This document shows, one piece after another, positions 10,687 to 64,000 of a stretch of DNA of 64,000 nt (position 1 is the stretch's first letter; every line of letters begins with the position of its first letter). This stretch comes from Burkholderiaceae bacterium 26 (lineage in GTDB: Bacteria; Pseudomonadota; Gammaproteobacteria; Burkholderiales; Burkholderiaceae). Under the pieces are notes generated by a model. It was not told where the DNA came from, ran no database searches, and worked only from the letters and a program-made list of their open reading frames with translations. A program made the translations under genes and the position numbers. The stretch spans positions 35,415 to 99,414 of the forward strand of contig JYOB01000014.1 of NCBI GenBank assembly GCA_000955795.1. Reading direction: 5' to 3'.

Positions 10687-10702
10687 TGTTTACAATTCGC
10701 CG

Positions 10703-11896
10703 ATGAGCAAAACCGTGAGTTTACCGCTTCCCAACGAGGCGGCGCAGGCGCAGTCCGCGCAACTGTTCGCCGTGATCGCCGACGCCATTGCGGCCGCCGG
10801 CGGCTGGCTCCCGTTCGACCGCTACATGGAACTGGCGCTCTACGCGCCGGGCCTGGGCTATTACAGCGGTGGCGCGGCCAAGTTCGGCCGCCGCGTGGAA
10901 GACGGCGGCGACTTCATCACCGCCCCCGAACTGACGCCGTTCTTCGGCCGCACCGTGGCGCACCAGATCGCGCAGGTGCTGCACGCATTACCCGAAGGCC
11001 AGCGCCACGTGCTGGAGTTTGGCGCCGGCACCGGCAAGCTGGCTGCCGACATCCTCACCGAACTCGATGCGGTGGGCGTGCGCCCCAACAGCTACGGCAT
11101 CGTCGAACTCTCCGGCGAGCTGCGCCAGCGCCAGCAGGAACGCCTGACCGCGCTCGGCCCCGAGCTGGGCGCCCTCGCGCAGTGGCATGACACGTTGCCC
11201 GCGCCGTTCTCCGGCGTGATGATCGGCAACGAAGTGCTCGATGCGATGCCCGTGTCGCTGTGGTCCCGTCGCAGCGGCGTGTGGCACCAGCGCGGCGTGA
11301 CACTCAACGCCGAAAACGGCCTGCAATGGGAAGACCGGCTCGTTGATCCGTCGGAGGTGCCTGCCAAGCTGGCTGCCCTGCCGGGCGCGGATGATCTCAT
11401 CACCGAATCACACGAAGCCGCCGAGGGCTTCATCCGCAGCGTTGGCACAGCGCTTGAGCGCGGCCTGCTGCTGCTGATCGACTACGGTTTCCCGGCTGCC
11501 GAGTACTACCACGCGCACCGCGCCAACGGCACGCTCATGTGCCACTACCGCCAGCACGCGCATGACGATCCGTTCTGGCTGCCGGGCCTGCAGGACATCA
11601 CCGCGCACGTCGATTTTTCGGGGATTGCCCAGGCGGGCCAAGAGGCCGGACTGGACCTGCTCGGCTATACGAGCCAGGCGCGCTTTCTGTTGAGCGCCGG
11701 GGTGGGCGAGCTGCTGATGACGCTAGATCCGTCCGACCCGATGCAGTTTCTGCCGGCGGCCAATGCCGTGCAGAAGCTGCTGTCGGAAGCCGAGATGGGC
11801 GAGCTGTTCAAGGCCATCGCGCTGGGCAAAGGCATCGATGCGGCGCTGCCGCTGGCCGGCTTTGCCGATGCCGACCGCTCGAACCGCTTGGGTTAG
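10703..11896 (+). CDS. SAM-dependent methyltransferase, MidA/NDUFAF7 family (DUF185)
   Basis: A 397-residue protein with the family signature 'ALYAPGLGYYSGG' near the N-terminus and the SAM-binding loop 'LEFGAGTGKLAAD'. It also has 'GNEVLDAMPV', 'LLLIDYGFPAAEYY' and 'GTLMCHYRQHAHDDPF'. Mitochondrial NDUFAF7 methylates an arginine of a complex I subunit; the bacterial role is not well defined. The start ATG 10703 follows a short AT-rich spacer; the upstream open frame is antisense to the SDR gene. It ends 4 bases before the convergent ampG-like gene. Confidence 0.9.
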   Translation: MSKTVSLPLPNEAAQAQSAQLFAVIADAIAAAGGWLPFDRYMELALYAPGLGYYSGGAAKFGRRVEDGGDFITAPELTPFFGRTVAHQIAQVLHALPEGQRHVLEFGAGTGKLAADILTELDAVGVRPNSYGIVELSGELRQRQQERLTALGPELGALAQWHDTLPAPFSGVMIGNEVLDAMPVSLWSRRSGVWHQRGVTLNAENGLQWEDRLVDPSEVPAKLAALPGADDLITESHEAAEGFIRSVGTALERGLLLLIDYGFPAAEYYHAHRANGTLMCHYRQHAHDDPFWLPGLQDITAHVDFSGIAQAGQEAGLDLLGYTSQARFLLSAGVGELLMTLDPSDPMQFLPAANAVQKLLSEAEMGELFKAIALGKGIDAALPLAGFADADRSNRLG

Positions 11897-11900
11897 TCAA

Positions 11901-13181
11901 TCAGGCTGACGCGGCTTTGGCCGCCAAGGCGCGTTCGTTCTGCTCGGCCTCGTAGCGGCCGATCGTGCCGCGCATCCACCACAGCAGCACCAGGCCCGGG
12001 AAGGCAAACGCCACGGTCATCAGATAAAACGCGGGCCAGCCATAGGCTTCCACGAGGTAGCCCGAGGTTGGCCCGACGTACACGCGACCGATGGAAGCCA
12101 GCGCTGACAGCAACGCATACTGCGTCGCCGAGAACGACCGGTTGCACAGCGCCATCAGCAACGCCACAAAGGCCGCCGTGCCCATGCCGCCGCAGATGTT
12201 TTCAATGCCGATGGCCACCGCCATCGTCCACAAATGCTGCGGCGTGACGGCCAGCACCCAGTAGCCGAGGTTCGACACCGCCTGCAGCACGCCAAAAAGC
12301 AGCAGCGCGCGCACCAGCCCCAGCCGCACCATCAGCGTGCCGCCATACAGCGCACCCACGATGGTGGCCGCCAACCCGAGCGTCTTGTTGACGATGCCAA
12401 CCTCGCCAGCGGAAAACCCGACGCCGCGGATCAGGAACGTGGTCGACAGGCTGCCTGCAAACGCGTCGCCCAGCTTGTAGAGCACGATCAGCGCCAGCAG
12501 CGCCCAGGCGCCCCGGCGTGAGAAAAAGTCCCGCAGTGGGCCGACCACGGCTTCCTGCAGACTGCGCGGCGGGCGTGCCGACACCTCCGGCTCCGGCGAC
12601 CACAGCGTCGCGATGATGCCCAGCGCCATCAGCCCGGCCATCAGCAGGTACATGTTGCTCCAGCCCATCACGCGATCGGCCAGATACAACGCCAGGCCGC
12701 CCGACACCAGCATCGCCAGCCGGTAGCCGAGCACCTTCACGGCCGCACCGACGCCCCGCTCGCTCGTATGCAGCACATCGGTGCTGTAGGCATCGAAAAC
12801 GATGTCCTGCGACGCTGATAAAAACGCCACCAACACTGCCAGCCCAGCCAGCGCCCAGAGCGCGGCATGCGGCGGCGTGAAGGCCATGGCGGCAATCGAC
12901 GCCACCAGCCCAGCCTGTGTCAGCACGAGCCAGCCGCGCCGCCGGCCCATCAGCGGCGGCGTAAACCGGTCCATCAACGGCGCCCACAGGAACTTGAAGA
13001 TGTACGCCTGCCCCACCAGCGAGAACAACCCGATGGTGCGGATGTCGAGTCCTTCCACCGTCATCCAGGCCTGCAGCGTGCCCGAGGTGAGCGCCAGCGG
13101 CAGGCCGGAGGCAAAGCCCAGCAACAGCATCGCGCCGATGCGGCGGTTGCGGAAAATATCGAGGTAATCGTGGAAGGTCAT
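11901..13181 (-). CDS. AmpG-like MFS permease (muropeptide transporter family)
   Basis: A 426-residue membrane protein with about 12 hydrophobic segments. It begins with the AmpG signature 'GFASGLPLALTSGTLQAWM' and 'GLFSLVGQAYIFKFLWAPLMDR'. AmpG imports anhydro-muropeptides for cell-wall recycling and affects AmpC induction. The frame extends to 13283, but that extension is hydrophilic and overlaps the divergent protease promoter, so ATG 13181 is preferred. Family assignment is strong; substrate is by homology. Confidence 0.88.
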   Translation of the reverse strand: MTFHDYLDIFRNRRIGAMLLLGFASGLPLALTSGTLQAWMTVEGLDIRTIGLFSLVGQAYIFKFLWAPLMDRFTPPLMGRRRGWLVLTQAGLVASIAAMAFTPPHAALWALAGLAVLVAFLSASQDIVFDAYSTDVLHTSERGVGAAVKVLGYRLAMLVSGGLALYLADRVMGWSNMYLLMAGLMALGIIATLWSPEPEVSARPPRSLQEAVVGPLRDFFSRRGAWALLALIVLYKLGDAFAGSLSTTFLIRGVGFSAGEVGIVNKTLGLAATIVGALYGGTLMVRLGLVRALLLFGVLQAVSNLGYWVLAVTPQHLWTMAVAIGIENICGGMGTAAFVALLMALCNRSFSATQYALLSALASIGRVYVGPTSGYLVEAYGWPAFYLMTVAFAFPGLVLLWWMRGTIGRYEAEQNERALAAKAASA

Positions 13182-13283
13182 GCGGCGGGCCAGAGGCGAA
13201 GGCGATGCGAATGCGGGTTGCCACGTAGCGTGGCGCGGTGCGTTGGCCGATATTATGTCGCACGGATTCGGCCCCTCGACCAT

Positions 13284-14228
13284 ATGCCCCGCGTAACACG
13301 CTCCCTGCTGACCGCTATCGGCCTCGCGCTATCTGCGTGGGCAACCGCCATGGACGGCCCGCTGCCGGTGCCCGCCGACGGCGTGAAACTGGAAGCGCCG
13401 ACCACCACGTCGCCCAACATCCGGCTCGTCATTCCGGCTGAAGAAATCGACAAGCGCGCGCTGGCCGAATACCAGGGAATCATCGACAACGCGGCCCACG
13501 AAGGCGCGCTTGCGCCTGACAACGTGCCGGATCTGATCCGCATTCGCGGCATCGTCAGGCGCCTCACGTCGCAGGCGCCGCGCTGGAACCCCGACGCCGC
13601 GCACTGGCAGTGGGAGGTCAACCTGATCGGCTCGTCGCAGGTGAATGCGTTCTGCATGCCCGGCGGCAAGATCGCCGTGTTCTCGGGGCTGCTCGAACAG
13701 TTCAAGCTGACGGACGACGAGCTCGCCATGGCACTCGGCCACGAGATCGCCCACGCCCTGCGCGAACACGCCCGCGCCCGCGCCGGCCAGCGCGAAATCA
13801 CCAACCTGGGCGCCAACGTCATCTCGCAATTGTTCGGCTTCGGCAACCGGGGCGACACGGACCTGGGCGAAGGCGCCAAGATGCACCTGCTGGCGTTCTC
13901 GCGTGCGGAGGAAACCGAGGCCGACCTGGTCGGCATGGACATCGCCTCGCGCGCCGGCTACGACCCGCGCGCCGCGCTCACGCTGTGGCAAAAGATGGGT
14001 TCGATCGGCGGGACAGAGCAAAAGCAGTTTCTGTCGACACACCCGTCGGGGCGCACGCGCATGGCCGTGCTGTCGCGTCATTTGCCTGAAACGCTCACGC
14101 TGTTTGCCGAGGCCCGGCACATGACGATGGCGAAGCTGCCGGAATATCGGTCGAACATGCAATATCTGGGTGCCGCGCCTGTTGATAATGGCGATGAGGC
14201 GCCCATGCGGCCGATGGTGCGGCGGTAG
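13284..14228 (+). CDS. M48-family metalloprotease with signal peptide
   Basis: A 314-residue Zn protease related to LoiP/YcaL/OMA1. A signal sequence ('SLLTAIGLALSAWATAM') is followed by an M48 domain. The zinc motif HEIAH is at about residue 153 and the third ligand glutamate lies in 'EETEADLVG' at about 212. Probably periplasmic quality control of outer-membrane proteins. The frame upstream of ATG 13284 is antisense to ampG and non-coding. It ends 7 bases before the convergent DMT transporter. Confidence 0.92.
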   Translation: MPRVTRSLLTAIGLALSAWATAMDGPLPVPADGVKLEAPTTTSPNIRLVIPAEEIDKRALAEYQGIIDNAAHEGALAPDNVPDLIRIRGIVRRLTSQAPRWNPDAAHWQWEVNLIGSSQVNAFCMPGGKIAVFSGLLEQFKLTDDELAMALGHEIAHALREHARARAGQREITNLGANVISQLFGFGNRGDTDLGEGAKMHLLAFSRAEETEADLVGMDIASRAGYDPRAALTLWQKMGSIGGTEQKQFLSTHPSGRTRMAVLSRHLPETLTLFAEARHMTMAKLPEYRSNMQYLGAAPVDNGDEAPMRPMVRR

Positions 14229-14235
14229 GCAACAA

Positions 14236-15156
14236 TCAACGTGTCTGCCGCCTTCCGGGGCTGGGATGCTGCACCGAATTCGCCAGCGCCGAGCGCACTC
14301 GCGGCGCCCGCCGCGACAACGCCATCCCCGCCACTGTGGCGCCCAGGATCAGCACCGCGCCGCCTGTCTGCATCGGGCTGAACCATTCGCCCAAGACCAG
14401 CGCACCGAGCACCGTTGCCGTCAGCGGGCTGAGCAGCGAAAGGAACGTCACGTCCGCGCCGAGCATGCCGATGCCGCGCACCCACAGCCAGTAACCCAGC
14501 GCCGTGCCGATGACGATGAGGTACGCAAAGCCGACCGCATTGCGCACGGTGAGTGCGGGTGGCAGCCCCTCGACGAACAACGCCACGGGCAGCAAGACCA
14601 GTCCGCCGAGCGCGAGCTGCCATGCCGCAACGGCCAGCGGCGTGCCGATACGGCCCCAGCGTTCGATGAGCACAGTCCCCATCGCCATCGATAGCGCGGC
14701 GGCCAGCGCCGCCACAACGCCGACCGCATCGAGCTTGGCCGCAGGGCCGAGAATCAGCAGCCCCACCCCCACCGACCCGGCCAGCGCGGCCGCCAATTGC
14801 GCCGGGCGCGGCTTGCGTGCGAGCAACGGCCACGCCAACAGCGCGACCACCAGCGGCTGTGCAGACATGATCGTCGCCGCCACGCCACCCGGCAGACGCT
14901 GCGCTGCCACGAACAACAGCGCGAAAAACACGCCGATGTTGGCCAGGCCAAGCGCCAGCAGGCGCAGCAACTTGTCTCGCGGCGGCAGCCCAGGGCCCAG
15001 CAGCGTCAGCAGCACGCCTGCCGGCAGCGCACGTAGCGCGCCGACCAGCAATGGGTGGCCGACAGGAAGCGTCTGCGTAAAGACGAGATATGTGGTGCCC
15101 CACAGCATGGGCGCCAACGCGGTGGCCAACATCGCAGCCAGACGATTAAACGGCAT
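14236..15156 (-). CDS. EamA/DMT-family transporter
   Basis: A 306-residue inner-membrane protein with ten hydrophobic segments and two EamA repeats ('APMLWGTTYLVFTQTLP' in the first, 'VIGTALGYWLWVRGIGMLG' in the second). Such proteins export amino acids or small metabolites. ATG 15156 is preferred over the open frame to 15255, which would run through the operator region. It is divergent from a MarR gene with three similar palindromes between them, suggesting MarR-controlled efflux. Confidence 0.9.
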   Translation of the reverse strand: MPFNRLAAMLATALAPMLWGTTYLVFTQTLPVGHPLLVGALRALPAGVLLTLLGPGLPPRDKLLRLLALGLANIGVFFALLFVAAQRLPGGVAATIMSAQPLVVALLAWPLLARKPRPAQLAAALAGSVGVGLLILGPAAKLDAVGVVAALAAALSMAMGTVLIERWGRIGTPLAVAAWQLALGGLVLLPVALFVEGLPPALTVRNAVGFAYLIVIGTALGYWLWVRGIGMLGADVTFLSLLSPLTATVLGALVLGEWFSPMQTGGAVLILGATVAGMALSRRAPRVRSALANSVQHPSPGRRQTR

Positions 15157-15178
15157 GAGAAATCTCCACGTGACGTAA

Positions 15179-15190
15179 TTTGATATCGAA
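15179..15190. promoter_or_regulatory. Candidate MarR operator, DMT side
   Basis: TTTGATATCGAA, a near-perfect palindrome, lies 23 bases upstream of the DMT start. It matches the sites at 15276-15303 near the marR start. Confidence 0.5.
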
Positions 15191-15275
15191 GTAATCACCT
15201 GAAGAAGAGCTGGGAATACGCAGCCGTCCGCACGCCGATTGCTGGGGGCCCGCAAACCCGGTACGATTTTTAAAA

Positions 15276-15303
15276 TTCGATATCAAGTAGTTTGACGTCG
15301 AAA
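15276..15303. promoter_or_regulatory. Candidate MarR operators, marR side (two palindromes)
   Basis: TTCGATATCAA (15276-15286) and TTTGACGTCGAAA (15291-15303) are two TTyGAyrTCrAA-type palindromes just before the MarR start. They share the half-site of 15179-15190. Confidence 0.5.
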
Positions 15304-15322
15304 TACTAGGATGAGGTGTTCG

Positions 15323-15832
15323 ATGGGTCAAGGCAATTCAGCGCCGGCACAAGGCGGTCCGATGGACGGCATTCTCGCGCAGTGGCGTCGGGAGCGTCCG
15401 GACATCGACCCAAGTCCGATGGCGGTCTGCGGTGAAATCTGGCGCGCGGGCGAACGTCTGCGGCAGGCGGTCGTCGCCAACGTGGCCGAGGCAGAGCTCG
15501 ACATGGCCGGCTTTGACGTGCTGCTCACCCTGCGCCGCAATGGCCGCGAAGAGGCACTGTCGCCGTCAGCCCTGGCCAAGGACATGATGTTGTCAACCTC
15601 GGCCATGACCAATCGGCTTGACCGGCTGGAAACACGTGGTCTCATTGTCCGCAGGACCGATCCTGACGACCGGCGCGGCCTGCAGATCGCCCTCACCGAT
15701 GCAGGCTTTGAGCTGATTGACGGGCTCGTTGCCTCCCACGTCGAGACGGAGGAGCGCATGCTTGCGGCGCTTGGCCCGGCCGAGCGGTCGATGTTGCGTG
15801 CGTTGCTCGGGAAGATTGGCGCGGCGGAGTGA
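15323..15832 (+). CDS. MarR-family transcriptional regulator
   Basis: A 169-residue protein with winged helix-turn-helix at about 60-125 ('SPSALAKDMMLSTSAMTNRLDRL' region and 'RRTDPDDRRGLQIALTDAG' wing). ATG 15323 is chosen because GGATGAGGTG stands at the right distance before it; ATG 15311, four codons earlier, is possible. It is likely to repress itself and the divergent DMT exporter. The ligand is unknown. Confidence 0.9.
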   Translation: MGQGNSAPAQGGPMDGILAQWRRERPDIDPSPMAVCGEIWRAGERLRQAVVANVAEAELDMAGFDVLLTLRRNGREEALSPSALAKDMMLSTSAMTNRLDRLETRGLIVRRTDPDDRRGLQIALTDAGFELIDGLVASHVETEERMLAALGPAERSMLRALLGKIGAAE

Positions 15833-15928
15833 AAGGCACATCCGATCGCTGCCTTCAGCCAATCTGCAGCCTGCCGTAACAACCCCGTAAGCAGACGGGT
15901 CGCGCAACCGTTCATTCCTCTTTACGAT

Positions 15929-15956
15929 GGCGCCTCACGTACGTGCATGAGGCGCC
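15929..15956 (+). promoter_or_regulatory. Perfect hairpin in the ydcF-like leader
   Basis: GGCGCCTCA (15929-15937) pairs with TGAGGCGCC (15948-15956) around a 10-base loop. It is followed 5 bases later by the GGAGG ribosome binding site. There is no T-run, so it is more likely a leader or mRNA-stability structure than a terminator. Confidence 0.4.
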
Positions 15957-15971
15957 AACCTGGAGGAACGT

Positions 15972-16727
15972 GTGAGCCTGACCATCCTGTGTGTGCTGGT
16001 GATCGTGGCAGCGGTGTGTGCAGCACGCGGCCGACGTCGGGCTGCGCGCGGGCTGGCGGTAGTCACGGGTGTGCTGGTGATGGCGATCGGCTGCGGGCCA
16101 GTGCCGGCATGGCTGCTGGATTCGCTGGAAAAGCCCTTCGAGAACGAGCCGCACATCCAATGGGGCGCGCGCAACGCCATCGTGCTGCTGGGCGCGGGCA
16201 CCTTTCGCGTGGGCGACGCGGTCGAGCCCGGGCTGTTCTCGTATCCGCGCATGGTGGAAGCCGCGCAGTTGTATCAGGCCTGCCGCAAGGCCGACGGCGA
16301 CTGCAAGATCCTCGTCAGCGGCGGCGATGCCCGCCATCATGGCGAGCCGGAAGCCACGGTATATGGCCGCGAACTCGTTGCCCTCGGCGTCGACCAGGCC
16401 GACGTACTGATGGAGCCCAAGAGCATGAACACGTGGCAGAACGCTCAGTTCTCGCGCACGGTGCTTGCGCAATACGCGGCTGATCGCACGGTGCTCGTCT
16501 CGTCGGCTATCCACCTACGACGCAGCCTGCTGTATTTCACGCACTTCGGCATGGCGCCGGTTCCCGTGCGCGCCGACGATCTGCAGGCTGCGGCATCGCC
16601 CTTGCCGGTGGCGTACAACTTCGCGCTGACAGATTTTGCGCTGCACGAGTGGATCGGCATCGCGCGCTATCACGTGTACAACGCGCTGGGCTGGAACCCT
16701 GCGCGCATCAACCCCGGCGACACCTGA
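15972..16727 (+). CDS. YdcF/ElyC-family (DUF218) envelope protein
   Basis: A 251-residue protein starting at GTG 15972 after TGGAGGAAC. Two N-terminal hydrophobic segments (about 3-18 and 27-50) are followed by a DUF218 domain with 'AIVLLGAGTF', 'LVSGGDARHHGEPEA', 'MEPKSMNTWQNA' and 'VLVSSAIHLRRSLLYF'. Relatives ElyC and SanA act in envelope and peptidoglycan homeostasis. The exact role here is unknown. Confidence 0.85.
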   Translation: MSLTILCVLVIVAAVCAARGRRRAARGLAVVTGVLVMAIGCGPVPAWLLDSLEKPFENEPHIQWGARNAIVLLGAGTFRVGDAVEPGLFSYPRMVEAAQLYQACRKADGDCKILVSGGDARHHGEPEATVYGRELVALGVDQADVLMEPKSMNTWQNAQFSRTVLAQYAADRTVLVSSAIHLRRSLLYFTHFGMAPVPVRADDLQAAASPLPVAYNFALTDFALHEWIGIARYHVYNALGWNPARINPGDT

Positions 16728-17038
16728 TCCGACTCCGCAACGCCCGCGCATTCGAAGCCACGCTCTAGTGCTTCCGGAGGGGAGCAAAAATCGGGCGCCG
16801 GCCTATACTTTGTGCATTGCAACATTCGGGCATCGCAATGCGCCACCTCGGTCGTATTGAAGCTCAGCACCTCATCACCATTGGCAAGCTCGCTTGCCAC
16901 CACCCGCCCACCGGGCGCGGCCATCCCTGACGGGAATCGCTGACGATTCCTGCGCCAGCAAGTGGGCCATTGCGTAAGCAGCGCGCCCGCCCCGCCAGCC
17001 ACACCTCAGAAGCAAACCAACAAGCAAGGGGAACCCTT
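16728..17038. other. Intergenic region before the SPFH gene
   Basis: 311 bases without a gene. Two inverted repeats are visible: GCATTGC...GCAATGC around 16818-16842, and GGCAAGC-TC-GCTTGCC near 16882. No convincing promoter or terminator could be assigned. Confidence 0.5.
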
Positions 17039-17947
17039 ATGCCTCAAGTCACGGCAAGCAAGCTGCCGGTCAAACTGCTCGCGCTCGTCTTTGGCGCCAT
17101 TGCGGCGCTGGCCATCGGGCGGACTTTCCTGCTGAACTGGCAGATCATTCCGCCCGGCTACACGGGCATCAAGATCAACCGACTCGTCGATCGCGGCATC
17201 ACGCATGAAAACGTCGTGACCGGGTTCGTCTTCTACAACCCCGTGCAGACGGCGATCATCCAGTACCCGACCTACGTGCAGCGCGTGATCTGGACGCAAG
17301 ATGTGAATGAAGGCCACGCGCTCAACGAAGAGCTGACGTTCAACACCAAGGACGCCGTGCCCGTGAATGTGGACGTGGCTGTCTCGTACCAGCTCGACCG
17401 CGACAAGGTGCCGGCGTTCTACACCAACTTCCGCGCCGATCGCATCGAGACCTTCACGCACGGCTACCTGCGCGACACGGCGCGCAACGTGATCGTCGCC
17501 ATCGGCTCGGAATACAACTTTGACGACGTGAACGGCGGCAAGAAGGAAGAGTTCGTCGCGCGGCTGACCAACGAGCTGGACGCGCGACTCGCACCGCTGG
17601 GCGTGTCGATCAAGCAGTTCGGCATTGTCGGCTCGCTGCGCCCGCCACGCTCGTTGCTCGATGCGGTGAGCGCCAAGACCAAGGCCATCCAGGACGCGAT
17701 CCGCACCGAGAACGAAGTGCGTTCCGCTCAGGCCGAAGCCAAGAAGAAGGTGGCGATTGCTGAAGGCGAAGCTGCGGCCAACCGCGCGCTCGCCTCATCG
17801 CTGGATGACCGCCTGCTGGCGTGGGAACGCCTGAAGCTCGAACGTGCCGCCATCGAGAAATGGAACGGCGTGACGCCGAGCGTGATGGCGGGCGGCAACG
17901 GCGGCGGCATGCTGTTCAACATTCCGGCAGGCGCGCAAAGTAGGTAA
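17039..17947 (+). CDS. SPFH/prohibitin-family membrane protein
   Basis: A 302-residue protein with an N-terminal membrane anchor (about 10-32) and an SPFH/Band 7 domain ('IPPGYTGIKINRLVDRG', 'DAVPVNVDVAVSYQL'). An Ala/Glu/Lys-rich helix ('EVRSAQAEAKKKVAIAEGEAAANRAL') follows for oligomerisation. Such proteins form large cages around membrane proteases. It starts at ATG 17039 after CAAGGGGAACC. It stands alone, ending in a strong terminator. Confidence 0.9.
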   Translation: MPQVTASKLPVKLLALVFGAIAALAIGRTFLLNWQIIPPGYTGIKINRLVDRGITHENVVTGFVFYNPVQTAIIQYPTYVQRVIWTQDVNEGHALNEELTFNTKDAVPVNVDVAVSYQLDRDKVPAFYTNFRADRIETFTHGYLRDTARNVIVAIGSEYNFDDVNGGKKEEFVARLTNELDARLAPLGVSIKQFGIVGSLRPPRSLLDAVSAKTKAIQDAIRTENEVRSAQAEAKKKVAIAEGEAAANRALASSLDDRLLAWERLKLERAAIEKWNGVTPSVMAGGNGGGMLFNIPAGAQSR

Positions 17948-17962
17948 GTCGCACCACCAAAG

Positions 17963-17988
17963 AAAAACGCGCCCGAAGGCGCGTTTTT
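17963..17988. terminator. Bidirectional Rho-independent terminator
   Basis: AAAAACGCGCC-CGAA-GGCGCGTTTTT is a perfect 11-bp stem with a T-run on both strands. It sits between the convergent SPFH gene and argC. Confidence 0.93.
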
Positions 17989-18012
17989 CGTTTCAGCCCA
18001 GGCGGTAATCGA

Positions 18013-19026
18013 TCAGCTCGCAAAACCCGGAGCGGCCTCGCGCACAGCGTGCTCGGCGCCGGCTGCAGGAATCGGCGCTTCCACGTGCAGACTGGTCGCC
18101 TCATCCACGCCCAGATGCACGTTCATGCATTGCACCGCGGCGCCGGCCGCGCCCTTGCCCAGGTTGTCCAGGCGCGCGGTGACGACCATGCGCTCGTCCG
18201 AGCCGAAGACGAACAGGTCGGCGCGGTTGGTGTCGTTGGCGCCCTGCACGTCGAAGAAGCCGTTGTCGAGTGTCGCAACATTGTCAGCCGGCGCCACGCG
18301 GATGAACTGCTCGCCCTGGTAGTAATCGGCAAACACCTTGGCGATGTCTGCCGGGCTCACCTTGCGTGCCAGATGCTGCGGGTGCAGGCCGATCGTCACG
18401 GCCAGGCCCTTGAGGAAGTTGCCGACCACCGGCGTGAAAATCGGGGCGAGCGACAGCTTGCTCTGCACGCGCATCTCCGGCAGGTGCTTGTGTGCCAGTG
18501 CCAGCGCGTACGGGCGCGGGCTGTCCAGCTTCGGATTATTGGCGGCGAGGTAGTCGGCAATCATCGCCTTGCCACCGCCGCTGTAGCCCGTGAGCGAGAA
18601 CGCGGTGACCGGGTAGTCGGCCGGCACGATGCCCGCCTCCACCAGCGGGCGCATCAGCAGCACGAAAGCACTGGCGTGGCAGCCCGGCACGGCGATGCGC
18701 TTGGTGTTGCGCAGGCGCTCGCGCTGGCCCTTGTTCAACTCGGGCAGGCCGTAGACCCAATCATCCGACGTGCGGAACGCGGTGCTGGCGTCGATGATGC
18801 AGGTGTTCGGATTGTTGACCAGCGAGACGGCCTCGCGCGAGGCGACGTCCGGCAGGCACAGGAATGCGACATCGGCGGCATTCAGGAATTTGGCGCGCTC
18901 GGCTGAATCCTTGCGCTTGTCTTCGGCGATGCGCAGCAGCTCGATATCGTCGCGCTGCGACAGATAGTCGAGCAAGCGAAGGCCAGTGGTGCCTTCCTGA
19001 CCGTCGACGAAAACCTTGAATGCCAT
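18013..19026 (-). CDS. argC: N-acetyl-gamma-glutamyl-phosphate reductase (type 2)
   Basis: NADPH-dependent reductase of arginine synthesis, converting N-acetylglutamyl phosphate to the semialdehyde. The N-terminal nucleotide fold has '[11 protein letters not shown]', the catalytic Cys116 lies in '[10 protein letters not shown]', and '[12 protein letters not shown]' follows. It is slightly longer (337 residues) than many short type ArgC proteins. It ends at the shared terminator with the SPFH gene and is not beside other arg genes. Confidence 0.95.
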
Positions 19027-19141
19027 GGCGATCTCGCTAAAAACAGAGGAGCAAAAAGCACAACGCCGGCCCCATGCCGGCGCGTGAGTTTTGCATTGTA
19101 GCGGCTGACGAAGAAATTTCTGCGGCAGCGCAATAAAGTGC

Positions 19142-19927
19142 CTACCAGTGCACCTTGGTGTCGTAATCGATCGTCAGCGGCGCGTGGTCGCTGAACTTGA
19201 TGTCCTTGAAGATCGACGTGCGGCGCGCGGTGGCGGCAATGCCCGGCGTGGCGATCTGGTAATCGATCCGCCACCCGACGTTCTTTGCGTAAGCCTGGCC
19301 GCGGTTGCTCCACCACGTGTACTGCTCGGGGCGGTCGTCCAGCGTGCGGAAAACATCCACGTAGCCGACTTCGTCAAACAGCTTGGTCAGCCACGCGCGC
19401 TCTTCGGGCAGGCAGCCGGAGTTCTTCTGGTTGCCCTTCCAGTTCTTGATGTCGATTTCCTTGTGGACGATGTTGACGTCGCCGCACAACACGACCTCGC
19501 GCCCTTTTTCGTGGCGCAGGTCTTTGAGGTGCTCCATGAACAGGTCCATGAAGCGGAACTTGGCCTGCTGGCGCTCTTCGCCGCTGGAGCCCGACGGCAC
19601 GTAGACCGAGATGATCGACAGCTTGCCGTAGCGGGCCTCGACATAGCGGCCTTCGGCGTCGAATTCGCCGTTATCGAAACCGACGATGACTTCATCCGGC
19701 TTGTGGCGCGTGTACAGGCCTGCGCCGCTGTAGCCTTTCTTCACCGCGTGCTGGAACACGCCGTGGTAGCCGTGCGGCGCCAGGAATTCGGGCGTCATGT
19801 CGTCTTGCGCGCATTTCAGTTCCTGCACACAGACGAAATCGGCGTCCTGCTTGCCCATCCATTCGAAAAAGCCTTTGCTGGCAGCGGAGCGAACGCCGTT
19901 GAGGTTGGCGGAAATGATGCGTAACAT
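19142..19927 (-). CDS. xth: Exodeoxyribonuclease III
   Basis: A 261-residue EEP-fold nuclease for abasic-site repair and 3'-end cleaning. Motifs seen are '[11 protein letters not shown]', 'FVCVQELKC' (metal-binding Glu), '[12 protein letters not shown]', '[20 protein letters not shown]' and C-terminal '[10 protein letters not shown]'. The start at 19927 lies 32 bases from divergent pyrE, so the two share a promoter region. Confidence 0.95.
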
Positions 19928-57352: not shown

Positions 57353-59392
57353 ATGTTGTTGACGTTGAGAAGAACGAGCGCGCCGCAAGACCGGCATTAC
57401 CCATTCGCGCGGAGCGTGGTGATTGGTTTGTTGAGCCTGTGGCTGGCGGCTTGCGGCGGCGGCTCGGCCGATACGCCTGCCGACTCGTCCACTGCCGCGA
57501 CGACTGCGCCCGTGTCTGCGTCAAGCCCTGGCGCCAGCCCGGCGCCGACGCCCGCCACGACACCGACGCCTGCGCCAACGCCCACTCCTGCGCCGAGCCC
57601 TACGCCAACACCCACGCCAACGCCAACGCCAACGCCGACGCCAACGATCACCTGGCTCAACCCCGCATCGATTGCATGGGGAACCGCGCTCAGCACCGCG
57701 CAGTTGAACGCGACTGCCAATGTGCCCGGCACCTTCGCCTATTCACCCGCGGCTGGCACCAAGCCGGAGGTGGGCACGCAAACCCTGTCGGTGACATTCA
57801 CGCCGCAGGACACGACCAGGTACGCCACCACCACCGCCGTGCGAACGCTGACCGTCAACAAGGCCGAGCCGCCGGTGCGGTGGGATCTGCCCGCCGCCGT
57901 GCTGCAGGGTTCTGCGCTGACGCCTGCGCAGGTTTCCACGGCGCCTTACGCGCTGTACGGCATTGGGGGCACAGTGGACCCGGCTTCATACACCACAGCG
58001 GATGGCGCACCGCTGAGTGCCGCCACCACCAGCACCGCCGGCAGCGTGACCCTGCAGGCCACGTTCGTGCCGAGGGACAGCGCGCACTACCGCACAGCCA
58101 TAGTCAGCACAACGCTGAGCATCAAACCCGCCGCCACGGCCGCGGCCATCAACTTTGGCAGTGCGAAACAAACCATCCAGGGGTTCGGCGGCTCGGCGGC
58201 CTGGTACTACACCAAGATGGCGGACGACCGCGTGAACGCGCTGTTCGGCACCAGCCTGACCGACAGCCTGGGGCTTTCCATCCTGCGGCTGCGCATTGCG
58301 CCTGCCGAGTGGAACACCACCACCCAGACGGCCGACACCACCCAATGGACGGCGGAGCTTGCGAACGGCGCCGCCGCCCAGGCACGCGGCGCACTCATCT
58401 TTGCATCGCCGTGGACGCCGCCGGCCAGCATGAAGATCGTCAACACAGACCGCACGAACCCGCTCTATAGCGGGCGCCTTGACCCGGCGCGGTACGCCGA
58501 CTACGCCAAGTACCTGAACAGCTACGTCCGGTATGCCGCCACCCGCAACGTGAACCTCTACGCCGTGTCACTGCAGAACGAGCCAGACTGGGACCCGGCG
58601 ACCTACGAATCCTGCCTGTGGAGCCCCGACGAAATGCGCGTGTGGGCCGCCGGCCATGGGGCCGAGGCCGTTGCCGGCACCACGGCCAAGCTGATGGCAC
58701 CAGAATCCTTCTACTTTTCTCAAGCGACGGTGGACACGCTGCTGGGCAATACCAATGCGGCCAGCAACATCTCGATCATTGGCGGGCACCTGTACGGCGG
58801 CGTGCCCGCCTACCCGGCCTCTGCCCGCAAGCTGGGCAAAGACGTATGGATGACCGAACACTTCCTGGATTCCGTCAACAAGGCCGACAACAAGACGGTC
58901 TGGCAGACCAGCATTGACGATGCCATTGCCATTGCGAAGGAGATCCACGACGGCTTTACGCTGGGGCAGTACAACGCGTATGTCTACTGGTGGCTGGTCA
59001 ACTCCAACGATGCCCAGCCCACCGGCCTGATCGGCTCGGACAACAAGCCCACCTACTTCGGCATTGGCCTGAAGCACTTTGCGTACTTCATTCGCCCCGG
59101 CTACGTGCGCTACGACACCACCGCGTTGCCGCAGAAGGGCGTGCGTGTTTCTGCGTTTGGCACGCCCGCAGGTGCGAGCGTCAACAAGGCTGTGGTGGTG
59201 CTGGTGAACGAGAACGCCACGGACGTCACCCTGACGACGTCGATCAACCCTGCGGGGCGCACGGTGACCAGCCTGACTCCGTACCGGACGACTGCGACTG
59301 CCACGTTTGAGCAGCAGCAGCCGTTGAGCGTGAGCGGGAATATGTTCACCGTTACGCTGCCGGCTAAGAGCATTACTACGTTGGTGAATTAG
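57353..59392 (+). CDS. GH30-type glycoside hydrolase lipoprotein (glucuronoxylanase/glucosidase-like)
   Basis: A 679-residue secreted enzyme. Lipobox 'LAAC' at Cys34 is followed by a Thr/Pro repeat linker (about 60-98) and two MBG-like strand repeats (about 99-170 and 172-262). The catalytic barrel runs from 'QTIQGFGGSAAWYY' to about 590. The acid/base Glu is in 'SLQNEPDWD' (about 409) and the nucleophile in 'VWMTEHFLD' (about 502), both typical of GH30. A beta-sandwich ends the protein. GH30 enzymes cut xylan or beta-glucans; a plant-cell-wall substrate is plausible but not shown. Confidence 0.88.
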   Translation: MLLTLRRTSAPQDRHYPFARSVVIGLLSLWLAACGGGSADTPADSSTAATTAPVSASSPGASPAPTPATTPTPAPTPTPAPSPTPTPTPTPTPTPTPTITWLNPASIAWGTALSTAQLNATANVPGTFAYSPAAGTKPEVGTQTLSVTFTPQDTTRYATTTAVRTLTVNKAEPPVRWDLPAAVLQGSALTPAQVSTAPYALYGIGGTVDPASYTTADGAPLSAATTSTAGSVTLQATFVPRDSAHYRTAIVSTTLSIKPAATAAAINFGSAKQTIQGFGGSAAWYYTKMADDRVNALFGTSLTDSLGLSILRLRIAPAEWNTTTQTADTTQWTAELANGAAAQARGALIFASPWTPPASMKIVNTDRTNPLYSGRLDPARYADYAKYLNSYVRYAATRNVNLYAVSLQNEPDWDPATYESCLWSPDEMRVWAAGHGAEAVAGTTAKLMAPESFYFSQATVDTLLGNTNAASNISIIGGHLYGGVPAYPASARKLGKDVWMTEHFLDSVNKADNKTVWQTSIDDAIAIAKEIHDGFTLGQYNAYVYWWLVNSNDAQPTGLIGSDNKPTYFGIGLKHFAYFIRPGYVRYDTTALPQKGVRVSAFGTPAGASVNKAVVVLVNENATDVTLTTSINPAGRTVTSLTPYRTTATATFEQQQPLSVSGNMFTVTLPAKSITTLVN

Positions 59393-59541: not shown

Positions 59542-59728
59542 TTACATCGCTGCAACGCCACCCGACGTCAGGTACTGACCGAAGAGGCGCGCGAACTGGC
59601 CGCCGTCGGTGTTGATGTTCGTCGAATAGGTACCGCCGCCGCCAAACACAATGGCAAAGGTATGCATGCCGCCGTACTCCCACGTGTTGCGCAGCATGTA
59701 GTCAACGTGGTTGTCTCGGTAGTGCCCA
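59542..59728 (-). pseudogene. 3' end of a leftward gene cut at the mobile-cassette junction
   Basis: On the minus strand a frame of about 62 codons with strong GC3 bias runs to TAA at 59542. It ends 'YLTSGGVAAM' and carries 'RNTWEYGGMHTFAIVFGGGG' upstream. A good terminator follows. At about 59729 the frame runs into sequence that is clearly parB on the other strand, so the upstream part of the gene is missing. The family was not recognised. Confidence 0.7.
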
Positions 59729-60003
59729 GCGATGAAGACGCTTTCGTGATGAGCCTGGCAGAAAATATCGCGCGCCGAAAGTGCAGCCCCTTAGAGCTCT
59801 TGGCAGGTATTGGCCGACTCCAAGAGCAAGGCTATGACAAGAAGGCGATCGCGGAGAAAACTGGCCTGACACTGGACTATGTACACGGCATCCTGCAGCT
59901 ACTCAGCAGCGGCGAGGAGCGTCTACTTGTGGCGGTGGAGTCGGGGCGCATCCCGTTGACAGCAGCACTTGTCATCTCGGGTGTAGGTTCTCAAATTAAC
60001 TGA
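59729..60003 (+). pseudogene. parB remnant
   Basis: Codons from about 59732 ('SDEDAFVMSLAENIARRKC') to about 59985 ('IPLTAALVIS') match residues about 88-170 of the intact ParB at 62369, roughly 70% at DNA level by eye. Both ends of the domain are lost. The open frame upstream to 59521 is only a chance fusion with the antisense of the broken leftward gene. Confidence 0.85.
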
Positions 60004-60251
60004 ATTGCCCCTCCATACAAATCAAAGACTTACTCATTTTTTTTGAGACTGTGACCTCAAGAAATTTCAAAAAAGATGGAAATTTCCTATCCGCGTTTCA
60101 CAATAGATGAAGTGACGCTTTCGATGGGTCCTCAGATTTCCAACGATCAACGCTCGGCTGCAAGTGTTTGCGTGGGCAGCAAGTCTTCTACGCTTGCTTA
60201 ATAGGGCCACGGCGGGCAGCGGCATACTCACCCAGACATCTGGAGTGAGTC

Positions 60252-60710
60252 ATGAGACCTGCCCGTTTGTGCGCCGCGTGCGGCCACCTCTTCCTCGCAC
60301 GCCCTCAAGTGCCGAGGCAACGATATTGCTCGGCCTCCTCGTGCCAACGGGAACGTCGACGGCGATGGCAGAAGCAGCATCTCCGGACGGACACCGATTA
60401 CCGGGACAACCAGGCACGAGCTCGGGCGAGGTGGACACAGCGCCACCGTGACTATTGGCGCAGCTATCGCACAACCCATCCGGCTTATGCCGAGCGCAAT
60501 CGGCTCTTGCAGCGGACAAGGAACGATCGACGACGAGCGATTGCAAAGATGTACGCGTCAGTCCCGAAAACGCCTCTGCCTTCAGGCACTTACGTGCTCC
60601 AGCGCGCGTCCGAAGACGGGATTGCAAAGATGGACGTCTGGAGGGTCCAGATCGTAGTGCTGCCGCCACCGCGCGCGCCATCAAGAGCTGATTGCAAAGA
60701 GATGATGTGA
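60252..60710 (+). CDS. Small basic protein with C4 zinc-ribbon-like motif, mobile-cassette associated
   Basis: A 152-residue protein with 'LCAACGHLFL' and 'RYCSASSCQRERRRRW': two CxxC/CxxxxC pairs about 18 residues apart. An Arg-rich helix ('DYRDNQARARARWTQRHRDY') and 'HPAYAERNRLLQRTRNDRR' follow. This looks like a DNA-binding protein. Proteins of this appearance tend to accompany the recombinase-ParB pair, from general knowledge. It could be a directionality factor, but that is a guess. The C-terminal third contains the GATTGCAAAGA repeats and may not be under strong protein selection. Confidence 0.7.
   Translation: MRPARLCAACGHLFLARPQVPRQRYCSASSCQRERRRRWQKQHLRTDTDYRDNQARARARWTQRHRDYWRSYRTTHPAYAERNRLLQRTRNDRRRAIAKMYASVPKTPLPSGTYVLQRASEDGIAKMDVWRVQIVVLPPPRAPSRADCKEMM
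60539..60700 (+). repeat. Three direct GATTGCAAAGA repeats
   Basis: Copies start at 60539, 60620 and 60690; the first two extend to GATTGCAAAGATG. Spacings are 81 and 70 bases, so the third is out of frame with the others and the similarity is at DNA level. They lie in the end of the small basic gene and before the recombinase. Confidence 0.75.
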
Positions 60711-60761
60711 GGCATGGTCTGCGGCCACCTGCTAACGTGATCTTGTGCGCTGTCCCCGTGA

Positions 60762-60775
60762 TTCCCGAACGGGAA
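60762..60775. promoter_or_regulatory. Short dyad before the recombinase
   Basis: TTCCCG-AA-CGGGAA lies 31 bases upstream of ATG 60807. It may be an operator or a site for the cassette's own ParB. It differs from the chromosomal parS consensus. Confidence 0.35.
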
Positions 60776-60806
60776 GAGCAGCGCCGCTCGCTAGCCGGTG
60801 CTCGCC

Positions 60807-62372
60807 ATGGCATTCGATCAGTACACCAGCGCTCTTCCGATCGCGGCTCCCGCGCTTCGGGCAGCAGAGTACGTGCGTATGTCGACCGAGCATCAGCAGT
60901 ACTCCACGCAGAACCAATGCGACAAGATCCGCGAGTACGCCGCTTCACGAGGTATTGAGGTTGTCCGTACCTATGCCGATGAAGGCAAAAGCGGCCTGCG
61001 GATCGACGGACGGGAAGCACTGCAAAGCCTCATCCGCGATGTCACGACCGGTCGCCCAGACTTCCAAGCGATCCTTGTCTATGACGTCAGCCGTTGGGGG
61101 CGCTTCCAGGATGCAGACGAGAGCGCGTACTACGAGTACATCTGCCGGCGCGCAGGCATCCAGGTCATCTACTGCGCCGAACAGTTCGACAACGATGGCT
61201 CACCTGTCTCGACAATCGTAAAAGGCGTCAAGCGCGCCATGGCGGGTGAATACAGTCGGGAGCTCTCTGCGAAGGTGTTTGCTGGACAGTGCCGTCTGAT
61301 CGAAATGGGCTTCCGGCAAGGCGGTCCTGCCGGCTTTGGTCTGCGCCGTGTGCTGGTCGACGAGCACGGTCTCATGAAGGCAGAACTCTGCCGCGGTCAG
61401 CGCAAGAGTCTGCAAACCGATCGCGTCGTCCTAGTGCCGGGCCCCGAGAGCGAGGTGCGTATTGTCAATCTGGTCTACAACTGGTTCATCGATGAGTCCA
61501 TGAACGAGTTCGACATCGCCGCGCGACTGAACACCATGCATGTGCGTACGGACTTGGACCGCGACTGGACTCGCGCAACTGTTAGGGAGGTGCTCACCAA
61601 CGAAAAATACATCGGCAACAACATCTACAACCGCGTGTCATGCAAACTCAAACGTGCCCGTGTCGTAAACGCTCCAGACATGTGGATCCGCAAGGACGGC
61701 GCCTTCGAGCCAATCGTCGCACCGGACGTGTTCTACACCGCTCAAGGAATCATGCGGGCCCGCGCCAGGCGGTACAGCAGCGAGGAGTTGATCGAGCGGC
61801 TGCGCAATCTTTATCGGAACCGCGGCTTCCTGTCCGGCCTCATCATCGACGAGACGGAGGGCATGCCATCTTCCGCAGCCTATGTGTATCGCTTTGGGAG
61901 CCTGATACGAGCCTACCAAACAGTGGGCTTCACGCCTGATCGCGACTATCGGTACTTGGAGATCAACCGTTTCCTGCGACAACTGCATCCAAAGATCGTC
62001 ACTCAAACAGAGCAAACCATTGCCGATCTAGGCGGCATGGTCCTCCGAGATCCTGCGACCGACATCCTGGACGTCAACAGGGAATTCACTGTATCGATTG
62101 TTCTGTCGCGCTGCCAGCCGAGAACGAATGGCGGCTATCACTGGAAGGTGCGGTTCGACACGAGCCTCTTGCCGGACGTCACCGTGGCGATTCGTCTGAA
62201 CAAGGCGAATGATGCGCCGCTGGACTACTACCTGTTGCCTCGCCTCGACTTCGCTCGCCCCGGCATCAGACTAGCCGAGCGCAACGCCATTGAGTACGAA
62301 AGCTATCGCTTCGACACGCTGGACTATCTGTATCGCATGGCCGAACGGGCGAAACTGAGAAGAGCAGCATGA
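60807..62372 (+). CDS. Large serine recombinase
   Basis: A 521-residue site-specific recombinase. The catalytic resolvase domain has Ser in 'YVRMSTEHQQYSTQNQ' (about 25) and Arg in 'YDVSRWGRFQD' (about 92), followed by 'GEYSRELSAKVFAGQ'. The recombinase domain ('GGPAGFGLRR', 'VREVLTNEKYIGNNIYN') extends to about 280. The Cys4 zinc ribbon usual in large serine integrases is not seen. In its place 'YSSEELIERLRNLYRNRGFL' and 'VYRFGSLIRAYQTVGF' resemble an HNH-endonuclease-associated DNA-binding repeat (about 317-370). The C-terminal 130 residues were not recognised. GTG 60798 is an alternative start. Confidence 0.9.
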   Translation: MAFDQYTSALPIAAPALRAAEYVRMSTEHQQYSTQNQCDKIREYAASRGIEVVRTYADEGKSGLRIDGREALQSLIRDVTTGRPDFQAILVYDVSRWGRFQDADESAYYEYICRRAGIQVIYCAEQFDNDGSPVSTIVKGVKRAMAGEYSRELSAKVFAGQCRLIEMGFRQGGPAGFGLRRVLVDEHGLMKAELCRGQRKSLQTDRVVLVPGPESEVRIVNLVYNWFIDESMNEFDIAARLNTMHVRTDLDRDWTRATVREVLTNEKYIGNNIYNRVSCKLKRARVVNAPDMWIRKDGAFEPIVAPDVFYTAQGIMRARARRYSSEELIERLRNLYRNRGFLSGLIIDETEGMPSSAAYVYRFGSLIRAYQTVGFTPDRDYRYLEINRFLRQLHPKIVTQTEQTIADLGGMVLRDPATDILDVNREFTVSIVLSRCQPRTNGGYHWKVRFDTSLLPDVTVAIRLNKANDAPLDYYLLPRLDFARPGIRLAERNAIEYESYRFDTLDYLYRMAERAKLRRAA

Positions 62373-63271
62373 ACACACAACCGCAACCTGGCGAGATCAG
62401 GATGATTCCGATCGACCGTATCGACGTGATCAACCCACGAGAGCGGAACAGCAAGGTCTTTGACGAGATCGTCGGGAACATCAAAGCTATTGGCCTCAAG
62501 AAGCCAATCACTGTCACGCCGAGGGCTGCTGCAGACGGCAGTGAAAAATTCCTTCTTGTCTGCGGTGAGGGACGGCTCAAGGCGTTCCGCTCGCTAGGGG
62601 AGGCGACGATTCCTGCGATGGTGGTCCACGTTAGCGACGAGGACGCGTTCATCATGAGCCTGGCCGAGAACATCGCGCGTCGTCAGTGTCGCCCTCTTGA
62701 GTTGCTGGCCGGTATCCGGCAATTGCGTGACAGCGGGTATTCGCCCAAAAAGATCGCGGAAAAGACGGGCTTAACAACAGCCTATGTGCAGGGAGTCCTG
62801 ACCTTGCTCCAGCACGGGGAAGAGCGCCTGCTGATTGCTGTTGAGAAAGGAACAATTCCTCTTACAGCTGCGCTCGCCATCGTTGGGGCCGGAGACGACG
62901 ACAAGGCAATCCAAGCAGCGCTGCAGGAGGCCTACGAATCTGGAAAGCTACGAGGCAAGCAGCTGATAAACGCGCGGCGCGTTATCGAGCGACGCCAAAC
63001 GCTGGGCAGATCCGCATCGCGCTACATGATTGGCAGGCGGGATGACGTGACCACCTCAAGCCTCGTCCGGACGTATGAAAGTGAGGTGGAGCGACAGAAA
63101 GCGATGGTCCGCAAGGCCGAATTCACACAGCAGCGACTCCTGTTTGTTGTTGGCGCGCTCCGACAACTGTTCGCAGATGAGAACTTCGTGAATCTGCTGC
63201 GGGCGGAATCACTGACAACACTACCGAAGTACCTCGCCGAACGAGTCTGGCCTACCGGGAGCTCACCATGA
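62369..63271 (+). CDS. ParB/RepB/Spo0J-family protein
   Basis: A 300-residue protein with the ParB N-terminal CTP-binding fold: 'MIPIDRIDVINPRERN', 'CGEGRLKAFRSLG' in place of GERRxRA, and 'MSLAENIARRQC'. A helix-turn-helix follows ('KKIAEKTGLTTAYVQGVLTL', about 127-146). It overlaps the recombinase by ATGA. No ParA is nearby, so classic partition is unlikely. It may spread on cassette DNA or assist the recombinase. Confidence 0.9.
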   Translation: MNTQPQPGEIRMIPIDRIDVINPRERNSKVFDEIVGNIKAIGLKKPITVTPRAAADGSEKFLLVCGEGRLKAFRSLGEATIPAMVVHVSDEDAFIMSLAENIARRQCRPLELLAGIRQLRDSGYSPKKIAEKTGLTTAYVQGVLTLLQHGEERLLIAVEKGTIPLTAALAIVGAGDDDKAIQAALQEAYESGKLRGKQLINARRVIERRQTLGRSASRYMIGRRDDVTTSSLVRTYESEVERQKAMVRKAEFTQQRLLFVVGALRQLFADENFVNLLRAESLTTLPKYLAERVWPTGSSP

Positions 63272-64000
63272 CAAGCGTCACTCTAGGCTTTGTGCCTGAG
63301 CCGCTTGCCGTTCCCTTGCCGCGCATTCTTCCGTCCCGCAGGACTCCGGCGGGCCTGACCAGCACTCGAAAGTTCAAGCAGATTCTCTCGTCCATCGGTG
63401 AAGTGGGCTTGATTGAGCCGTTGACCGTAACAGCAGTGGACCAGCAGTCGGGCAACCACATCCTGCTGGATGGGCACATCCGACTGCTCGCGCTGCGCGA
63501 CTTGGGCCACGACAACGCCTCCTGCTTGGTTGCTACCGATGACGAGGCATACACCTACAACAACCGCATCAACCGCCTGTCGACCATTCAAGAGCATTTC
63601 ATGGTCCGACGTGCCATTGAACGTGGCGTCTCGCTGGAGCGTCTCGCCAAAGCTCTTTCCGTCGATACCACTCAGATCGTGAAGAAGATGAATCTTCTGG
63701 AAGGAATCTGCCCGGAGGCGGTGGATTTACTGCGCGACCGGCAGTTCTCAACAGAGCTAGCGCGAGCGCTTCGAAAAATGAAGCCGACGCGCCAGGTTGA
63801 ATGCGTCGAGTTGATGATTGCCGCGAACAACGTTACGGTTGCCTATGCAGAGGCGCTTCTCGTTGCTACGCCAGCCGCACGCCTTGTCGACGGAAAGAAG
63901 CCGGCCAAGCTAACTGGAGTGACGCATGAGCAGATGGCTAAGATGGAACGGGAGATGAGCAACCTGCAAGAACAGTACAAGATCGTCGAGCAGACCTACG
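63268..64000 (+). CDS. RepB-like ParB paralogue, 3' end outside the window
   Basis: An open frame of 244 codons runs to the window end. The ParB-like N-terminal region has 'IGEVGLIEPLTVTA' and 'LLDGHIRLLALRDLG'. A helix-turn-helix part follows ('SLERLAKALSVDTTQIVKKM'). A RepB-type C-terminal start, 'EQMAKMEREMSNLQEQYK', lies near 224-242. It overlaps the preceding parB by ATGA at 63268-63271. The short frame on the other strand here is not coding. Confidence 0.88.
   Translation, partial: MTSVTLGFVPEPLAVPLPRILPSRRTPAGLTSTRKFKQILSSIGEVGLIEPLTVTAVDQQSGNHILLDGHIRLLALRDLGHDNASCLVATDDEAYTYNNRINRLSTIQEHFMVRRAIERGVSLERLAKALSVDTTQIVKKMNLLEGICPEAVDLLRDRQFSTELARALRKMKPTRQVECVELMIAANNVTVAYAEALLVATPAARLVDGKKPAKLTGVTHEQMAKMEREMSNLQEQYKIVEQTY

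Follow-up and report, generated by a model that had tools for sequence, protein, structure and literature searches.

A serine recombinase-parB-repB operon as the likely integration module of a family of proteobacterial genomic islands

At the right end of a 64,000-nucleotide (nt) stretch of Burkholderiaceae bacterium 26 (contig JYOB01000014.1; G000:C6:35415-99414, hereafter the window) stand a zinc-ribbon-like gene (znr), a large serine recombinase gene, parB and a repB-like paralogue of parB. This gene set is likely to be the integration and excision module of a family of proteobacterial genomic islands, which in a few relatives is located at the 3' ends of tRNA genes. The recombinase, parB and repB genes form a conserved operon, which is found at high identity between unrelated flanks.

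The znr gene (60252-60710, plus strand) encodes a basic protein of 152 amino acids (aa) with a zinc-ribbon-like CxxC...YC arrangement, which had no match in Pfam at E≤1, in PHROGs at E≤0.001 or in a profile search of the PDB at E≤1, and whose sole NCBIfam match was far under the cut-off (21 of 70 bits). The large serine recombinase (60798-62372, plus strand; 524 aa) contains a resolvase domain (PF00239, E=2.6e-23) and PF07508 (E=1.6e-19), the latter matched once in this genome at E≤0.001. Residues R27, M28, S29 and T30 were invariant across 55 recombinase sequences, and the serine of this motif is presumably the catalytic one. PDB matches of the recombinase end near profile position 307; its last 200 residues matched no solved structure by sequence at E≤0.01, and the recombinase zinc-ribbon family of Pfam was not detected in it at E≤1. 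The parB gene (62369-63271, plus strand; 300 aa) carries CGEGR..A and ENIARR motifs and matches PF02195 (E=1.6e-10) and PF07506 (E=1.7e-14); its product aligns with Spo0J, Spo0J and Noc structures were matched by sequence, and the CG(E/Q)GR..A and EN.ARR motifs are kept in 16 of 16 aligned ParB sequences. The repB-like gene (63268-64149, plus strand; 293 aa) matches PF07506 (E=2.2e-46) and ParB_N weakly (E=0.14), and lies in the window up to 64000, ending 149 nt outside it at L002:7564 (window-equivalent 64149). An earlier, sequence-only reading of the window had described a tightly overlapping recombinase-parB-repB operon with a small basic CxxC protein upstream, and the coordinates agree with this, with 4-nt overlaps between recombinase and parB and between parB and repB, and with znr separated from the recombinase by an 87-nt gap without overlap. 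No second serine recombinase is present in the operon.

Relatives were taken as 80 loci in other genomes, the best of 180 candidates from a search with the recombinase. The genes had been expected to travel together, and where enough downstream sequence was available ParB was present in 73 of 73 loci and RepB in 67 of 69, with a shortened or diverged copy in L021 and none detected in L076. The znr gene was detected in 32 of 76 loci, every one of them a member of the closer group, the beta/gamma type. Because znr was detected solely in beta/gamma-type loci, the universal unit is recombinase-parB-repB and not all four genes; of the four-gene cassette proposed earlier, the operon stands as a conserved unit, whereas the set as a whole is better described as the likely integration module of larger islands, the measured relatives being islands of 4.95 kb to 67.4 kb rather than free cassettes. 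Among viral contigs (66 of 80 viral loci taken, 14 left out), those with sufficient sequence contained ParB in 55 of 59 cases and RepB in 54 of 57, and the recombinase started within 3.5 kb of the left contig end in 27 of 66, compared with 8.8 expected if positions were uniform. Distances between the proteins correlate across 73 loci (Mantel r 0.77, 0.79 and 0.69; p 0.001). The recombinase was matched at E≤1e-100 in 17 of 300 sampled genomes of the order, its own genome included and three at ≤50% identity, and recombinase-parB was unmatched at the DNA level in E. coli genomes.

The set occurs in differing contexts, in line with the earlier reading as a mobile cassette, including Pseudomonas loci, Agrobacterium and Sphingobium-type plasmids. 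Two Pseudomonas loci (L015 and L020) have the region from znr to repB in common over 4,020 bp at 90% identity and no other shared block at E≤1e-6, which shows that the operon itself is sometimes the only block shared. In Agrobacterium, a 3,904-bp unit at 96.9% identity is located between other flanks. As to the comparison of occupied with empty sites that had been suggested as a check, 16 records of Sphingobium-type plasmids, two of which were opened, have both flanks and lack the unit. Direct repeats flank the module in 5 of 72 loci (L015, L023, L047, L112 and L117; 72 of 86 loci had both flanks long enough), with 0 of 5112 in a cross-locus control, and inverted repeats were found in none of the 72; Rfam detected no family at the repeats of L015 and L047. 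As a separate observation, one site before a DUF2493 gene in Sphingobium plasmids (L117, L119, L123 and L125) accepts arsenic genes, nhaA or the recombinase module.

Four relatives show the operon flanked by a tRNA gene on its repB side and, on its znr side, by a displaced copy of the 3' end of that gene. The two repeats of L023, separated by 4.95 kb, correspond to the 3' portion of a tRNA-Val gene on the right and to a displaced copy, 49 bp long, on the left. G188 carries two copies of a tRNA-Arg end, one of 58 bp to the left of the module and one of 46 bp to its right, and the tRNA gene itself lies beyond the second. The G270 case is a tandem array of two 67,431-bp units that are 100% identical; each of its three junctions has TGGTGG, a 6-bp core, and the final junction coincides with the CCA end of tRNA-Phe. 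A weak example with tRNA-Phe comes from G154, where 26 of 33 bases agree by eye. No tRNA-end copy was found in G295, G299 or G122, and the stretch from G122 is without a tRNA gene. Considered by itself, the G270 array (G270:C1:1182469-1317336) is a perfect tandem duplication, at tRNA-Phe, of a 67.4-kb island that includes a prophage. A tRNA-arm pattern gave nine matches in the near flanks of L031, L047, L023, L084, L113, L115 and L127, and since the background, 3.6 times longer, has 18 matches, the enrichment is at most weak. In Agrobacterium plasmids, tRNA-end-like 27-mers that differ from a made-up consensus at 1 to 7 bases (expectation 0.05 for each 29.5-kb shuffle) lie at the edges of the recombinase module and of Fic and AbiE modules. 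With a 24-base version, pAtC58 gave 8 matches confined to a single strand and pAt1D1460 gave 7 distributed over both, and a reversed 24-base control had no match in four plasmids. The single-gene Fic modules and AbiE pairs of these plasmids (L113, L127, L128 and L129), which are bounded by similar 27-mers and have no recombinase of their own, have the look of a cassette array.

A repeated element within znr, just upstream of the recombinase in many beta/gamma-type loci, is a DNA-level signal and is new here. The iterons (TTGCAAAG...GGACGTGT) lie in the 3' end of the gene and follow the pattern TTGCAAAG-NN(N)-GGACGYGT. All three are on the plus strand: R1 (GATTGCAAAGATGTACGCGT) at 60539-60558 inside znr, R2 (GATTGCAAAGATGGACGTCT) at 60620-60639, 81 nt after R1, and R3 at 60690-60709, 70 nt after R2 at the end of znr (DCKEMM), which has one extra base and is read in another frame. 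In relatives, R1 and R2 are mostly 81 nt apart and R2 and R3 about 70 nt. Codons within R1 and R2 are nearly fixed (ATT 14 of 14, GCA 23 of 23, GCA 17 of 18), with a top-codon share of 0.40-0.50 at three other alanine columns and an average of 0.56 at other conserved codons, and the lysine and aspartate codons of the iterons barely differ from those elsewhere. The codon counts rest on at most 27 related sequences, because the search expression found znr in 27 of 35, and these are not independent events. In the diverged subgroups (L021/L029, L031/L033, L010/L011 and L032), the iteron copies change together. One iteron common to both groups was considered and rejected, the alpha-type loci being without znr iterons; at least two copies of another repeat occur in 17 of 24 listed alpha-type sequences, namely the tandem 12-bp repeats with AGGGTCA that an alpha-type subgroup (the L060-L080 group) has about 550-600 nt upstream of the recombinase.

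Several results weigh against reading the gene set as the integration module of tRNA-targeted islands. A tRNA-end copy came from only three of the six genomes examined, and of these copies one is strong, one has just 6 bp and one is weak; the constant orientation is partly built in, because the six-genome search covered the znr side only, and the tRNA-like end right of the L084 module lies in the opposite orientation. No flanking repeat was found in 67 of 72 loci, nor at the window copy, where the best direct-repeat score, 25, stayed below the maximum of 27 reached by shuffled sequence. The Sphingobium plasmids yielded no single attachment core, as the left and right junctions have no one clean core in common, and the three Agrobacterium plasmid records with the moved unit, one of which was opened, are equal in length and probably one plasmid. 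In viral contigs, 19 of 66 recombinases lie near the right end compared with 13.8 expected, and contig ends may be assembly ends. The distance correlation is weak within 30 beta/gamma loci (r 0.22-0.40, not permuted), so that some reassortment or alignment noise remains. Iteron copies, counted with a fixed pattern at ≤2 mismatches in 35 znr-type sequences (the window, 32 genome loci and two plasmids), number at least two in 16, one in 10 and none in nine, including L023. Excision and a circular form of the island are proposals from sequence.

The copy in the window may itself be a dead fossil, whatever the family does, a reading that we rate a little short of an even chance and that is compatible with an integration role for the family. 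Its left edge is scarred. A minus-strand chromosomal gene, of which a C-terminal remnant is left (59542-59727; intact 434-aa homologue in the same-genus genome G015), is broken at 59727|59728, and from there on the DNA is foreign, opening within a parB-like fragment (59728-59987, plus strand) that lacks both ends, is 68% identical to aa 86-181 of the intact ParB and matches PF07506 (E=2.2e-7). The four-gene set had earlier been given a start at 59729; at this position lies not the zinc-ribbon gene but the parB fragment, which was overlooked and which is the relic of an older related module and the left edge of the foreign DNA. Relics of related modules also stand beside intact ones in L014, L021 and L008. 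The non-coding stretch upstream of znr (59981-60251, no strand assigned) aligns from 59981 with the upstream region of the Cupriavidus necator module L006, and because of this alignment the left limit of the present module is probably at about 59981, abutting the relic. The lack of a detected flanking repeat and the difference in the interval before gyrB between two compared species also favor a fossil, whereas none of the four reading frames is interrupted and the iterons are present. The window copy stands at the left margin of an island with many defence-like genes, adjacent to the relic of an earlier module, and it may be fixed, because its own end sites were not found.

Some of the same loci suggest that the operon could be passive cargo in islands moved by tyrosine or prophage integrases or by Tn7-like transposases, which would be the owners of the tRNA-end repeats; we consider this unlikely. 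The neighboring element in G188 has a copy of the same tRNA-Arg end, starts with a likely tyrosine integrase (identified by eye) and could use the same repeats. The G270 array has two kinds of PF07508 recombinase, that of the module near the left end and that of a prophage (recognized from open reading frames (ORFs) by eye), which places a prophage serine integrase inside the same unit. Tn7-like-looking ORFs are present in the island of the window (by eye), and sharing of the operon alone at E≤1e-6 by L015 and L020 would also fit cargo. In L023, however, the two tRNA-Val copies are 4.95 kb apart and no other recombinase was found among the ORFs listed between them; the G270 array is without a PF00589 match and has a core of 6 bp only, and the island of the window likewise contains no tyrosine integrase match (PF00589), the nearest on the contig being at C6:200980. 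No tRNA gene was found in the window island. The module was also considered as the left end of the Tn7-like element of this island and rejected, as no convincing inverted repeat was found between 59950-60260 and the region right of the TnsA-like ORF.

An origin as a plasmid-derived set, in which the recombinase resolves multimers and ParB and RepB segregate a replicon since integrated in the chromosome, is very improbable. The homology of ParB and RepB to partition proteins fits such an origin, and the recombinase has matches in 127 plasmid records, of which 60 cover at least 80% of its length. However, no parA or plasmid replication gene was seen among the ORFs as far as gyrB, about 33 kb rightward, where only the first right-flank proteins were searched against libraries and the others were read by eye without a ParA family search; the absence of ParA noted earlier therefore holds, and a plasmid replication and parA module just right of the window, named beforehand as refuting a mobile chromosomal set, was not seen as far as inspected. 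Nor were such genes named directly beside the operon in the plasmid stretches opened, the annotated ParA and RepA of a Roseomonas plasmid being about 7.6 kb and 5.5 kb away from it and the annotated repA of a Sphingobium plasmid about 12.6 kb. Least probable of all is a role in defence or regulation, with the recombinase inverting or silencing neighbor genes, for although left neighbors match UvrD (6), AbiEii (3) and Fic (3) models among 68 proteins and right neighbors Fic (2) and SLATT (2) among 64 (132 of 135 chosen proteins and 95 of 114 distant controls, those of at least 1700 aa left out), the flanking repeats are direct with none inverted, and since proteins at least 6 kb away match defence models as well, these matches may be a property of the islands and no enrichment is claimed.

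ParB-family proteins bind cytidine triphosphate (CTP), close as clamps and spread, and these activities are tied to conserved motifs, while large serine recombinases usually need one small directionality factor. If the gene set is an integration module, the recombinase would act on a short core sequence where a tRNA gene, or another gene, has its 3' end, cutting there and joining the circular island to it. With lower confidence, ParB and the RepB-like protein may be DNA-loading partners seated on the iterons rather than a segregation system, and may set the timing, direction or site pairing of recombination, and ZNR may contribute DNA contacts. Putative help by the ParB proteins to the attachment complex or in target choice, as raised earlier, would be compatible with the evidence. 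A more specific version is tentative and rather unlikely to hold in full: ParB clamps would load at the znr iterons, reach the island ends by sliding or bridging and, aided or opposed by the RepB-like protein, decide between integration and excision. If true, ParB machinery for segregation would have been co-opted to control recombination in islands of beta-, gamma- and alphaproteobacteria. A recombinase tied by an operon to two ParB-family proteins suggests another way to control integration and excision, and the set provides a marker for island ends in proteobacteria and a role, open to test, for ParB proteins without ParA.

Compared with the ParABS and RepABC systems (Spo0J, Noc, RepB), the ParB described here likewise keeps CG(E/Q)GR..A and EN.ARR, whereas no ParA was seen and the operon partner is a recombinase. 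A literature search of open-licence PMC papers recognized no description of the znr-recombinase-parB-repB set. The earlier statement that no functional description was known thus holds for the gene set itself, but a near precedent exists in the ssrA islands of Dehalococcoides, as excerpts of the describing paper indicate (PMC3146451). These islands are the closest precedent, and the present family works alike without being a member. The excerpts describe a DsiB module with a CcrB-like serine recombinase beside attL and a ParB-domain protein, 20-bp direct repeats of the 3' end of an RNA gene, tandem islands and islands without an integrase (PMC3146451). Common to both are therefore a serine recombinase with a ParB protein, direct repeats of an RNA-gene end and tandem islands. 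The Dehalococcoides module differs in its ssrA target, its six genes, a second small serine recombinase, RecF and Mom homologues and a tRNA-like locus, and it has one ParB protein of 210 aa, with no RepB paralogue, znr or iterons described in the available excerpts (PMC3146451). Neither insertion at ssrA nor a DsiA companion was found in the present family, the mapped relatives using tRNA ends and the operon being without a second serine recombinase. The recombinase scored 49.2 and 20.6 bits with the NCBIfam CcrB and CcrC models, below the cut-off of 900. The Ccr recombinases of the staphylococcal cassette chromosome (SCC) are not known to have ParB partners, whereas the present recombinase has two ParB-family partners. 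In SCC, the large serine recombinases CcrA and CcrB insert islands at one gene, and composite cassettes occur, according to the same excerpts (PMC3146451). In tRNA-targeted islands with tyrosine integrases, a regenerated tRNA gene and a displaced fragment mark the two ends, as outlined in excerpts of the Islander paper (PMC4383910). The present relatives are alike in having a tRNA gene at one end and a displaced 3' copy at the other (L023 and G188, with the 6-bp core of G270 and the weak case of G154), but have a serine recombinase with two ParB-family partners, and the core in G270 is 6 bp.

The island of the window is about 37 kb in length, from its scarred left edge to gyrB, with gyrB, dnaN and dnaA closing its right side. 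Next to the module on the right come an unknown ORF, an AAA ATPase that also carries a methyltransferase domain, and an nSTAND3 protein (Pfam), and further right, presumably, Tn7-like transposition genes, a C5 methyltransferase, a Vsr-like nuclease, a helicase and DISARM-like genes (from ORFs by eye). The Tn7-like-looking ORF set and the DISARM-like set, also read by eye, occupy L003:1418-9166 and 9965-19279, beside gyrB. The interval from a GH30-like gene (window 57353-59392) to gyrB is an insertion hotspot: G010 has about 10.5 kb of other DNA in it, and G015 has different genes after the same left flank. In G299, the module is bracketed by a 1,251-bp direct repeat, 99.8% identical and possibly an insertion sequence, whose copies lie 3.6 kb to the left and 11.9 kb to the right of the recombinase. 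A 13.5-kb record labelled Lactiplantibacillus plantarum (NZ_CP110863.1), possibly mislabelled, carries a recombinase of 57.8% identity.

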